This document shows positions 31,347 through 36,468 of a DNA stretch of 55,033 nt, piece by piece (position 1 is the first letter of the stretch; every line of letters begins with the position of its first letter). The stretch comes from a bacterium (GTDB lineage: Bacteria > Patescibacteriota > Minisyncoccia > UBA6257 > JAGOQP01), in assembly GCA_021780615.1 (NCBI GenBank), contig JAJXYJ010000020.1, positions 1 through 55,033 on the forward strand, given 5' to 3'. A model generated the notes under the pieces. It was given only the letters and a program-made list of their open reading frames with translations, was not told where the DNA came from and did not search any database. The position numbers and the translations under genes were made by a program.

Positions 31347-32690
31347 TTAGACTTTTGATTTAATGACCACCATGATATCCGATACATTAAAACAGTTCTT
31401 TTGAGCAGTAACATGCCCACCTATTTTTTTAAAAAAATGATAAGAATCATTATCACGCAAGAATGTCTCCGCCGATAATCCTGCGCGCAGTGCGCTGTCT
31501 GCTATATCAGTATCAGCAATTGCCCCTGCCACATCAGTATTATCATAGGCATCAGACGCAACACTCGCCGCACACACGCTTTTGTATTGTTGAGCATCTT
31601 TCTGCATGGCCGCAACAACGCCCAGCGCCGCTTCCTGATTTCTTCCTCCTCTACCTGTGCCATGAATCGTTACCGTCGTTTCTCCGGCACATATAATCGT
31701 CTCCCTGTTGCCTACCTTCTGAGCCAACGGCCGCAGCGCTTTATAAGCCTCTCCACTCAACGCAAGAGATCCCACCGATGCAATATATCCCAGCGCTCGC
31801 GCTTTTTTCGTCATCGCCAACACCGCATCTTCATTGCAGGCAAGCATGTGATATGAAGACCGAGCAAATAATTCCTTGTCCTTGGGTGTTTCGGCAAGAG
31901 GACATTCCGGCACGCCATATTTTTTTAACAGAGCACTCGCACCAGTCACTGTTGTCGCATCATACATAGTCGGCCCGGATGCAATGGTTGCCATATCATT
32001 ACCACATACATCGGATACCACCAACGACACTTGCCGTGCCGGTGCGGCATATGCCGCAAGCCACCCCCCTTTCACTAAAGACGTATGCTTGCGCACCACG
32101 TTTAGTTCTTCAATGGCAGCCCCATGCTTTGTCAGGGCATCAAATGAAAATCGGGCGCACTTCATTTCTTCCATTGAGCCACACAACAAAGATGATCCGC
32201 CGCCGCCGACAAAATAAATCACCACATCATCCTTTGTAGCGGACCGCACCATGCGCACTATACGCTTGGTTGCCGCGACGTTCTGCCGTGAGGGCAGAGG
32301 GTGCGTGCCCCAAAACACATGCATACGAGAACCGGAGCGAGTATGATATTTTTTTTCTTGTAACACATCAATAACCACTCCTTCCGTCAGCCGGTTTTTG
32401 AGCTGTGAAGCAATGTACGCACATGCCACAGCAGACCCCTTTCCAAACCCCGCAAGATAGATGTGTCGCACGCCTTTTAATGACATGCGCGTGACCGATG
32501 CCGCGTCGCGAATAATAAGCGTATCGCCTGAAACGCGAAACCGTTTCGGCAGAAGCGCATCAATAGCAATCGCCTTGTATCCCGCCTCAAGAATGCGCAG
32601 CATATCGCGCCGCAGAGGAGTAAGAGGCGTGTGAGTATCATAAGAAACTAACATAGAATAAGCATACCATACTGTATGCGCGTATAACAA
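31347..32690 (-). CDS. Glycerate 2-kinase (DUF4147/MOFRL family)
   Basis: HIYLAGFGKGSAVACAYIASQL, VYFVGGGGSSLLCG, GETTVTIHGTGRGGRNQEAALG, SVASDAYDNTDVAGAIAD. Confidence 0.88.
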   Translation of the reverse strand: MLYAHTVWYAYSMLVSYDTHTPLTPLRRDMLRILEAGYKAIAIDALLPKRFRVSGDTLIIRDAASVTRMSLKGVRHIYLAGFGKGSAVACAYIASQLKNRLTEGVVIDVLQEKKYHTRSGSRMHVFWGTHPLPSRQNVAATKRIVRMVRSATKDDVVIYFVGGGGSSLLCGSMEEMKCARFSFDALTKHGAAIEELNVVRKHTSLVKGGWLAAYAAPARQVSLVVSDVCGNDMATIASGPTMYDATTVTGASALLKKYGVPECPLAETPKDKELFARSSYHMLACNEDAVLAMTKKARALGYIASVGSLALSGEAYKALRPLAQKVGNRETIICAGETTVTIHGTGRGGRNQEAALGVVAAMQKDAQQYKSVCAASVASDAYDNTDVAGAIADTDIADSALRAGLSAETFLRDNDSYHFFKKIGGHVTAQKNCFNVSDIMVVIKSKV

Positions 32691-32925: not shown

Positions 32926-35900
32926 CTATTTCACTTTCTTTATGCCGATCCATACGGCATACGTATCAACTTTTGTTTCAATTTCCGCATCAAATTTCTC
33001 CACGCGACTATACACGATGCGTTTTGCTCCCACATCCTTACACAATGACGCTTCATGATGTTGCATCATAGCTATAAGATTGCTGTCCGCAACAACGTAT
33101 AATTCAACGACATCTTTGGGTACATAGCCGGCCGCTTGGCGCAAGTCTTGAATGACACGCGTCAACTCACGAATAACCCCTTCCATTTTTAATGCCGGTG
33201 TTATAACCGTATCAAGTACAAAATCCTGCTCAAGTGCGGCATTAAATACAACACTCTTCACATTAACTTCATCGGCTACAATCGCCAACAATGCATCAGA
33301 AAATTTCCCCTTCAGTTTCGCCCCCTTGATAGTCAACGTTCCTAATGGCTGACGAACTTTTATCCCCGCAGAAGCACGTTGCGCTAACACACCGCTGGCA
33401 ATACCGCGAATCCATGCCATGGAAGTCATCAACTGTTTATCAGAAGCACCAGATCGCACCGTTGGCCAGAGCGTTATATGCACCGAATCATCTTTTTTAA
33501 AGGTATAGGATTTTGCCAATGACTGATACAGCTCTTCGGCAAAAAATGGCGTGAAGGGAGCAATAATTTTTGACGTCTGCAATAACACATACGCCAATGT
33601 ACCCGATGCCGCTTTCCAATCTTTGACATCGTCGGGCTTTTGAAACCGCCGTCGTGATCGACGAATATACCAACGAGAAAGATCATCGATAAATTGCTCA
33701 ATGCACGATGCCGCACCAACAACGTCATACGCATCCATCGCCTCCTTCACCTCGCGAGAACACGCGGCTAAACGCGCCACAATCCATACATCAACAGGAT
33801 GGTCAGACGCAGGAGCTTCCTGAATAGAAAGCTTATCTTTGCCGTATAAATGCAGAAATGTATATGAGTTATACAATACCATCAAAAATCGCCGCGATGC
33901 TTTACTGATATCCTGTTCATTAAAATTTTTCGGTTCTGCCGGAGAATTGACGGTATAAAAATACCAACGAATAGCATCGACGCCATACGTTTGAATAAGT
34001 GACCACGGATCAACCACGTTACCTTTTGACTTGGACATCTTTTGTCCATTCTTATCCAACACCAATCCCAACGACAACACATTCTTGTACGGCGTCCCTA
34101 ACCCCAACATGACCGCCACGGCCATAAGGGTATAAAACCACCCGCGCGTCTGATCGATGCCTTCACAGATAAAATCAGCGGGAAATCCAGGAGGAGTAGT
34201 GGGTACGTTGCTTGCTTTCAGTGTCTTAGTAGCACTCATTTTTTCTCCCGGTGCACCAAACGGAAAATGAGTAGAACCATACGGCATTGATCCTGAATCA
34301 AACCACACATCAGCAACATCGGGCACCCGATGCATCGTGTGACGACACGAAGAACAGAGCAACTCTATGGTATCAACATAGGGACGATGGATATCAAGAT
34401 AGCCATACTCATCAATAGGAAAGTTATCATATGCCACCTCCTTGAAAGTGGCAGGCTTCATATACGGGAAATTTTTTGCGACAGCTTCTTGGTCGGTAGC
34501 GTGTCGAAAAATCGCTTCAAGCATCCACAACGGATCGCCGTGGCTCACGATAAGAATTTTTTTGCCGTGATACCGCGCATCAACATCTTTTATAAAAGAA
34601 GTTACCCGTTTACGGACATCGCGCAATGTTTCTCCTCCTTCCGGCGCCTCAGAAAAACGCGTACGCACATCAGGAAATGTCTTCAAAAAATCTTCAACTG
34701 GCTTATTGTTAAATACTCCCACTTGTAACTCAATGAGCCGATCATCGGTAACAACATCAGCACCGGTCGTTTCAGCAACAATCGCCGCTGTCTCCTGCGT
34801 TCGATGTAACGGTGATGCAAAAATAATATCCACTCCTTCTTGTGCCAATTTTTTTGCCTGCGCGCGAACCGCAGTTATTCCTTTCTGCGTAAGAACCGAT
34901 GTGTATTCTTTTGTTTCGGGAGCCGAGGCGCTACGCTTTTCCACGTTCGCCGTCGCTTCTCCATGCCGCATAAACAAGAATGTATTATGTCGCACCCGAT
35001 GAGTATTTAAATCTTCTAAACTCCCCGCAACCATCATCTTGCCGCACGCATCACACCGCCATATGGGAAGTGGCGTTCCCCAAAAACGTTCGCGCGATAT
35101 TGCCCAATCTTTTGCCTGCCCGATCCATTCTCCAAATCGTCCCTCCTTCAAATACGCAGGCACCCAGTTCACCGTGCTATTCGCTTTCGTGAGTCCCGCA
35201 CGCACGCGCGATACTTCAAAAAACCACGAGGTCCGCGCCATATAGAGCAGCGGCGTCGAACAACGCCAACAGAACGGATATTCATGTTCCGCTTTTGTAA
35301 AGAAAAATAGTAAGCCACGCGCATCCAAATCCTTCACAATCATCTTATCCGCATCTTTCACAAAGAGTCCCTCACCCACAAATCCTTTGGACACCGTACC
35401 ATCCGCTTCAACGGTGTGAGGCAATACGGCATCGCGCATACCCTCCGAAAAAACGAGCGCAAAATCATCCTCGCCAAACGTTGGCGCGATATGCACCAAT
35501 CCCGTACCATCACCCGTGGAAACAAAATCTCCCCCCAATACCGTGTAAAGTGGCACGGGTACCTGCACCTCAGGTTGCGCCACACGAAGATCGTAGAGTG
35601 GTTCATACTCCCAACCAATCATATCTTTCCCTGCAATCGTCTCTATAGATTTTGGCGTCACGCCCTGTAAAGCAGATTCGGGAATAGTATGTGCCCACAC
35701 AAACTTCTCGCCAATCTGATACTTCGTATATGCCACTGTTGGCGAAAGCGCGATTGCCACATTAGCCGACAACGTCCAGGGTGTTGTGGTCCACACCAAT
35801 AAATACTCATCTTTTTTTCCTTTCAGCGGAAAAAGCACAAATACCGACGGATCAGGCACCGTTTTATACACTCCCGGCTGTCCCAATTCATGATTAGCCA

Positions 35901-36468
35901 ACGTCGTCTGACACCGCGGACAATACGGAGTCACTTTATAAAATTCCTTCAAAAAATTTTTATCATACAGTGATTTAAACACCCACCATAAACTCTCCAC
36001 AAAATCTGGCGTGTACGTTACATACGCATGATCCAAATCAAGCCAATAACCAATACGGTCGGTAAGTTTTTCCCACTCATCTTTATATTTAAAAATGGAT
36101 TCTTTCGCTTTTTCATTAAATCGCTCAATACCCAACGCCTCAATTTCTTTTTTAGTAGAAATCCCCAACGCTTTTTCGGCGGCAATTTCAATCGGTAATC
36201 CGTGTGTATCCCAGCCTGCCTTGCGCGGTACCACAAATCCCTGCATCGTCTTGTAGCGCAAAAACACGTCTTTCATGACGCGCGAGAGAATGTGATGGAT
36301 ACCGGGACGCCCATTGGCATACGGCGGCCCCTCCCAAAAATAGAACGTCTTTGTACGCACCCCCTTTTTGGGCGTGATACTTTTTTGAAAAATATGTTTT
36401 TCTTTCCAAAGGGAAAGCACCTTTTCTTCCAATTCAGAAGGTGAAAATGATTTCAGATTTCGCAACAT
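32926..36468 (-). CDS. ileS: Isoleucine--tRNA ligase with inserted histidine-phosphatase domain
   Basis: PPYANGRPGIHHILSRVMKD (HIGH-like), KNGQKMSKSKGNVV (KMSKS), DVWFDSGSMPYGSTHFPF; inserted FLFMRHGEATAN...ILIVSHGDPLWML. Confidence 0.96.
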   Translation of the reverse strand: MLRNLKSFSPSELEEKVLSLWKEKHIFQKSITPKKGVRTKTFYFWEGPPYANGRPGIHHILSRVMKDVFLRYKTMQGFVVPRKAGWDTHGLPIEIAAEKALGISTKKEIEALGIERFNEKAKESIFKYKDEWEKLTDRIGYWLDLDHAYVTYTPDFVESLWWVFKSLYDKNFLKEFYKVTPYCPRCQTTLANHELGQPGVYKTVPDPSVFVLFPLKGKKDEYLLVWTTTPWTLSANVAIALSPTVAYTKYQIGEKFVWAHTIPESALQGVTPKSIETIAGKDMIGWEYEPLYDLRVAQPEVQVPVPLYTVLGGDFVSTGDGTGLVHIAPTFGEDDFALVFSEGMRDAVLPHTVEADGTVSKGFVGEGLFVKDADKMIVKDLDARGLLFFFTKAEHEYPFCWRCSTPLLYMARTSWFFEVSRVRAGLTKANSTVNWVPAYLKEGRFGEWIGQAKDWAISRERFWGTPLPIWRCDACGKMMVAGSLEDLNTHRVRHNTFLFMRHGEATANVEKRSASAPETKEYTSVLTQKGITAVRAQAKKLAQEGVDIIFASPLHRTQETAAIVAETTGADVVTDDRLIELQVGVFNNKPVEDFLKTFPDVRTRFSEAPEGGETLRDVRKRVTSFIKDVDARYHGKKILIVSHGDPLWMLEAIFRHATDQEAVAKNFPYMKPATFKEVAYDNFPIDEYGYLDIHRPYVDTIELLCSSCRHTMHRVPDVADVWFDSGSMPYGSTHFPFGAPGEKMSATKTLKASNVPTTPPGFPADFICEGIDQTRGWFYTLMAVAVMLGLGTPYKNVLSLGLVLDKNGQKMSKSKGNVVDPWSLIQTYGVDAIRWYFYTVNSPAEPKNFNEQDISKASRRFLMVLYNSYTFLHLYGKDKLSIQEAPASDHPVDVWIVARLAACSREVKEAMDAYDVVGAASCIEQFIDDLSRWYIRRSRRRFQKPDDVKDWKAASGTLAYVLLQTSKIIAPFTPFFAEELYQSLAKSYTFKKDDSVHITLWPTVRSGASDKQLMTSMAWIRGIASGVLAQRASAGIKVRQPLGTLTIKGAKLKGKFSDALLAIVADEVNVKSVVFNAALEQDFVLDTVITPALKMEGVIRELTRVIQDLRQAAGYVPKDVVELYVVADSNLIAMMQHHEASLCKDVGAKRIVYSRVEKFDAEIETKVDTYAVWIGIKKVK
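34405..35005 (-). other. Histidine phosphatase (phosphoglycerate-mutase-like) domain embedded in IleRS
   Basis: MRHGEATAN (RHG), SPLHRTQETAAIVAE, EAPEGGETLRDVRKRV, VSHGDP all present between WRCDACGKMMVAGSLEDL and DIHRPYVDTIELLCSSC. Confidence 0.9.

Follow-up and report, generated by a model that had tools for sequence, protein, structure and literature searches.

The isoleucyl-tRNA synthetase (IleRS) gene of the window, the whole 55,033-nucleotide stretch of DNA analysed here, contains a complete histidine phosphatase domain of the RHG superfamily. This insert is probably a second, chemically independent working enzyme, made together with IleRS and kept near it, and the predicted phosphatase activity would itself be under selection. 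It was unexpected that the catalytic half of an essential synthetase should house a complete phosphatase whose active site is kept across a large bacterial group, and also that RHG domains were inserted repeatedly into two sister synthetases. Many tiny Parcubacteria have the IleRS fusion, and together with the further insertions it hints that phosphate chemistry and the first steps of protein synthesis are linked in a way not yet described.

The source genome has a length of 612 kb and is 96% complete. The 1180 aa protein matches the NCBIfam ileS model TIGR00392 with 839 bits, the cut-off being 621. It has the class I core with KMSKS, the CP1 editing domain, and the anticodon domain, and PF00133, PF08264, and PF19302 were detected. 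The core, CP1, and the CP2 zinc knuckle are common to this protein and type 2 IleRS (Priestia megaterium IleRS2, 8c8v/8c8w; Thermus thermophilus, 1ile), and so is the C-terminal DUF5915 region. The canonical HxGH signature is absent from the window IleRS, where GIHH is located in its place. The GIHH motif occurs in hyper-resistant IleRS2 and is linked to mupirocin hyper-resistance (PMC10485003). Since GIHH is a known natural variant of IleRS2 and does not define type 2, the assignment of the protein to IleRS stands. Of 102 single-insert IleRS, 74 have the G/AxHH form, against one of 14 double-RHG IleRS. The synthetase half can be regarded as a presumably ordinary, functional type-2-like IleRS. 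The features of the gene are listed in Table 1.

Table 1. Features of the ileS gene of the window (positions in the window) and sites of RHG insertion in IleRS and ValRS.
Feature	Position	Strand	Basis or remark
ileS, IleRS2-like isoleucyl-tRNA synthetase with internal RHG phosphatase	32926..36468	(-)	1180 aa, ORF uninterrupted
GIHH, replaces class I HIGH signature	36292..36303	(-)	Read from sequence
CP2 zinc knuckle, first half, CDAC from C472	35044..35055	(-)	Conserved Cys
RHG histidine-phosphatase insert, residues ~492-690	34399..34995	(-)	1ile alignment gap; AlphaFold2 model of insert
PF00300 match, residues 498-654	34507..34977	(-)	121 bits, E 5e-35, gathering cut-off 21.7
R501-H502, RHG motif; His502 is the predicted phospho-acceptor	34963..34968	(-)	Invariant in 62 aligned fused proteins
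R556 (SPLxR), phosphate pocket	34801..34803	(-)	62/62
E580, predicted general acid	34729..34731	(-)	E in 52, D in 10 of 62
E613 (GGET)	34630..34632	(-)	62/62
H643, second catalytic His (VSHGDPLW)	34540..34542	(-)	47/47 inserts not selected by motif
CP2 zinc knuckle, second half, CSSC from C705	34345..34356	(-)	Conserved Cys
KMSKS motif	34027..34041	(-)	Read from sequence; nearly invariant
Insertion site P1 (window site)			Between the two CxxC, zinc knuckle
Insertion site P2			Before WFDSG motif (RIPEVLDCWFESG)
Insertion site P3			After HYPF loop
Insertion site P4			Between KMSKS and anticodon domain

Where P. megaterium IleRS2 and 1ile have about eight residues, the window IleRS has about 200, which form an enzyme domain. 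In the alignment with 1ile, residues 490 and 691 of the window protein correspond to residues 479 and 488. The insert separates the two halves of the CP2 zinc knuckle, C472xxC475 and C705xxC708, and all four positions are Cys in 50 of the 62 aligned fused proteins; the CxxC pair presumably plays the same zinc role as in 1ile-type IleRS. The phosphatase appears to be a self-contained domain spliced into a surface loop of this knuckle, and because both its entry and its exit are there, the IleRS core would remain undisturbed. The earlier note, made without database searches, had described an uninterrupted IleRS ORF with a complete RHG domain in place of a short linker, and the ORF, the two domain scores, and the 1ile alignment bear this out. 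Its boundaries for the insert, 34405-35005, were right within about 10 bases, every motif that it quoted is present, and the PF00300 scan that it suggested gave the match shown in Table 1, which is the single match of this family across the whole source genome.

Three-dimensional structures predicted using AlphaFold2 were obtained for the full-length protein (pLDDT 90.9, pTM 0.85) and for the insert alone (pLDDT 95.9, pTM 0.92). The TM-scores of the whole IleRS model are 0.93 with 1ile and 0.84 with P. megaterium IleRS2 (by target length), and those of the insert model are 0.83 with PspA (4ij6) and 0.81 with PhoE (1h2e), which the insert also matches by sequence. In the predicted structures, a confident RHG fold sits on an undisturbed IleRS core. 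Residues 493-690 also match PHROG phrog_12933 of unknown function (100 bits), which indicates that RHG proteins related to the insert occur in phages.

The insert belongs to branch 1 of PF00300, since it scores above the gathering cut-off and carries the RHG...R...E...H set at positions 501, 502, 556, 580, and 643. In the 62 aligned fused proteins, the catalytic residues are invariant, with the exception of E580, which is either E or D. In the 47 single inserts that were not selected by motif, R501, H502 (46 of the 46 covered), R556, E580, E613, and H643 are kept throughout, whereas the mean column identity of the insert alignments is only 43–44%. The 80 loci of the genome scan described below were picked by tight alignment; the HGDP[LI]W motif is kept there by the selection and is not counted as evidence. 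The suggestion that the domain looks catalytically competent agrees with the predicted fold, the full set of catalytic residues, and their conservation over dozens of genomes. We infer that the insert is enzymatically active and that selection keeps the phosphatase activity rather than the bulk of the insert. Its predicted reaction is the cleavage of a small phosphomonoester, during which His502 would be phosphorylated, R501, R556, and H643 would bind the phosphate, and E580 (E or D) would serve as the acid. The conservation of these residues could instead reflect ligand binding rather than catalysis.

PspA (4ij5/4ij6), PhoE (1h2e), and CobC have the RHG fold and the full catalytic set in common with the insert; however, they are stand-alone enzymes, whereas the insert is located inside a synthetase. 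Distinctive signatures of the insert family are E-[ILY]-[ND]-x-G-x-[FY]-N near the acid and, in many members, HGDPLW after the second His. The scores of the insert fall far short of all NCBIfam equivalog cut-offs. It is not a member of PspA (NF045917, 74.5 versus 350 bits), to which it is similar in fold only, nor of the alpha-ribazole phosphatase CobC (TIGR03162, 73.6 versus 162.9 bits). Its best non-synthetase match is the bifunctional RNase H/acid phosphatase NF005567 (98 bits), in which an RHG domain is likewise fused to an RNA-related enzyme; however, that protein is an RNase H fusion and not an internal synthetase insert, and the score is under the cut-off of 326. NF040702, an IleRS with an N-acetyltransferase domain, also bears an extra catalytic domain, but this domain is GNAT and not RHG, and the window protein reaches 243, where the cut-off is 1999. 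Given that the nearest solved relatives are a phosphoserine phosphatase (PspA) and a broad-spectrum phosphatase (PhoE), the most likely substrate, by analogy, is a small organic phosphate.

The search for IleRS with an internal RHG domain in other genomes, also proposed by the note, revealed many. The insert was matched in 57 of 60 genomes (the source genome and its near relatives) and in three it was not; in 51 of the 57 it is located within a long frame, some of these frames being ended by contig ends, and in six it is a stand-alone gene of about 184–215 aa. All 30 long frames examined align with IleRS. The scan of genome contigs yielded 144 relatives, and 76 of the 80 loci kept are within IleRS, the other four being free genes. 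Of the 32 phylum-sample genomes from the window's class, 25 have a split ileS match, a proxy for the insert, whereas many IleRS in the rest of the phylum are unsplit. The named carriers are Patescibacteria: Colwell-, Harrison-, Azam-, Nealson-, Uhr-, Doudna-, Vogel-, and Ryanbacteria, among others. The spacing between C472 and R501 is 28–30 residues in 53 of 62 fused proteins, and the junction lengths are near-constant. The distances between inserts and those between cores are correlated (Mantel r 0.56, 0 of 999 permutations). Near-constant spacing and such a correlation are what a single ancient insertion, passed on with the gene, should produce.

RHG domains were found at four sites of IleRS and ValRS, the window site and three further ones. 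Some IleRS bear two RHG domains (1441–1551 aa), and one, L086, bears three (1572 aa). Tandem duplication was rejected as the origin of the double-RHG IleRS: the two copies occupy different sites, and the second copies fall in another RHG branch than the first ones. ValRS carries an RHG domain at P1 in L066 and L095, at P2 in L065, and at P3 in L084, and the G408 genome has RHG in both IleRS and ValRS. Among the matches listed for the phylum sample, all 29 RHG-bearing frames of at least 800 aa are IleRS or its paralogue ValRS. Two ValRS are very long. That of L065 (1327-5157 (+), 1277 aa) contains a HAD phosphatase (HAD_2), a serine hydrolase (PF06821), and RHG as inserts; that of L070 (1195-5037 (+), 1281 aa) has an RHG insert and a similar length. 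Shorter RHG fusions also occur in the phylum (L091, L092, L093, and L094), with RHG C-terminal on MFS, 2-hydroxyacid dehydrogenase, and VTT proteins; the L093 fusion was judged by length and tree position only.

The repeated use of just these two synthetases by different RHG branches, the double and triple proteins, and the two long ValRS speak for a phosphatase that serves the synthetase cycle in cis, the fusion being mechanistically needed. Such an enzyme might remove a phosphorylated product, an inhibitor, or a mis-made adduct at the Ile and Val synthetases, or it might dephosphorylate the synthetase. Tolerance of the CP2 loop could, however, also explain the insertion sites, and no known substrate is tied to IleRS or ValRS.

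Free RHG genes bear on the same question. The ileS gene follows argS in 46 of 80 parcubacterial loci, and recO is next after ileS in many loci. In seven genomes, a free RHG gene is located between argS and an insert-free ileS. In L162, L180, L195, and L206, it lies 1–17 bases from ileS; in G334 (L226), the distance is about 0.9 kb; the other two cases are G276 (L225) and G351 (L227). On the RHG tree, all seven genes nest inside the IleRS-insert clade. Three further genomes with an insert-free ileS (G175, G411, and G428) have an unlinked free RHG gene; the copies of G428 (L101) and G175 (L230) are also inside this clade, and the G411 copy (L102) pairs with that of G428 with 100% support. The best RHG trees place the free genes nested among the inserts; in the AU test, a fused-only clade was not rejected (p = 0.106), and a single free clade was only just rejected (p = 0.048). 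Most lineages without the insert, although not all of them, have the phosphatase as a free gene. The G204 genome has the argS–ileS–recO order and an insert-free ileS, and no RHG was found anywhere in it, so some lineages can do without the activity.

The note had proposed that the insert may couple aminoacylation to the hydrolysis of a phospho-metabolite, such as an alarmone, or may clear inhibitors. Free RHG genes beside an insert-free ileS, together with the repeated insertions, make coupling more plausible, and direct coupling of the phosphatase to aminoacylation is possible. On the other hand, the adjacency of the free genes to ileS may be a mere trace of history, and the unlinked copies, which suffice in three genomes, indicate that the phosphatase need not be physically fused. 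The repeated choice of IleRS and ValRS is the strongest argument for coupling, and the sufficiency of unlinked genes in some lineages is the strongest against it. Obligatory action in cis is doubtful. Equally tentative is the idea of a synthetase-bound phosphatase system of Parcubacteria, in which the target of the RHG domains of IleRS and ValRS would be either the synthetase or a phosphorylated compound belonging to its aminoacylation or editing cycle; we consider it rather unlikely. If true, this system would add a level of quality control or regulation that has not been described elsewhere. We prefer an independent enzyme, whose tethering would mainly serve co-production with IleRS and closeness to it.

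An insert that is catalytically silent and has a structural or regulatory role would fit its position in a structural zinc knuckle of a protein with an essential function. A degenerate insert should, however, lose catalytic residues, whereas the catalytic set is complete in all insert subfamilies and in nearly all free genes, which makes this explanation improbable.

Even less credible is that IleRS houses, as this insert, a phosphoglycerate mutase otherwise missing from the cell. The insert belongs to the same superfamily, is the only PF00300 protein of the genome, and coexists with phosphoglycerate kinase. However, the genome has neither enolase nor the iPGM family, and all dPGM models are far under their cut-offs (84.7 versus 225 and 36 versus 81.7 bits). 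Of 12 fused genomes of the class in which the insert is the only RHG, six lack enolase, and PF01676 (iPGM-type) proteins are present in five of the six that do have enolase. The glycolytic role was therefore rejected. A glycerate 2-kinase gene (DUF4147/MOFRL; 31347-32690 (-)) is located just downstream of ileS in this genome. A functional link between it and the insert was also rejected; the kinase family is found at only two of 81 loci (80 and the window), so there is no conserved neighbourhood. That the insert is an assembly chimera, a possibility named in the note, or a chance ORF is practically excluded, since dozens of independent assemblies share the architecture and the junctions and nothing was found in favour of a chimera.

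Synthetases with extra catalytic domains are already known. A literature search, with most subscription journals outside its reach, found no paper on an RHG–IleRS fusion; the architecture is visible to Pfam and may therefore appear in domain databases. New here are the free RHG genes of the same clade where ileS has no insert, the RHG domains from other branches at three further IleRS/ValRS sites, and the finding that the insert is not a glycolytic phosphoglycerate mutase. Fused, free, double, triple, and absent states offer ready comparisons for work on the substrate, and the system is a clear test case for whether minimal-genome bacteria couple phosphate metabolism to isoleucine and valine charging.

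In L109 (G431, a genome of the window's order), TGA seems to code for tryptophan in ileS: 16 of 20 scorable in-frame TGA codons are located in Trp-consensus columns. In-frame TGA was likewise observed in the ileS-family (synthetase) matches of G414, which is from the genus of G431.
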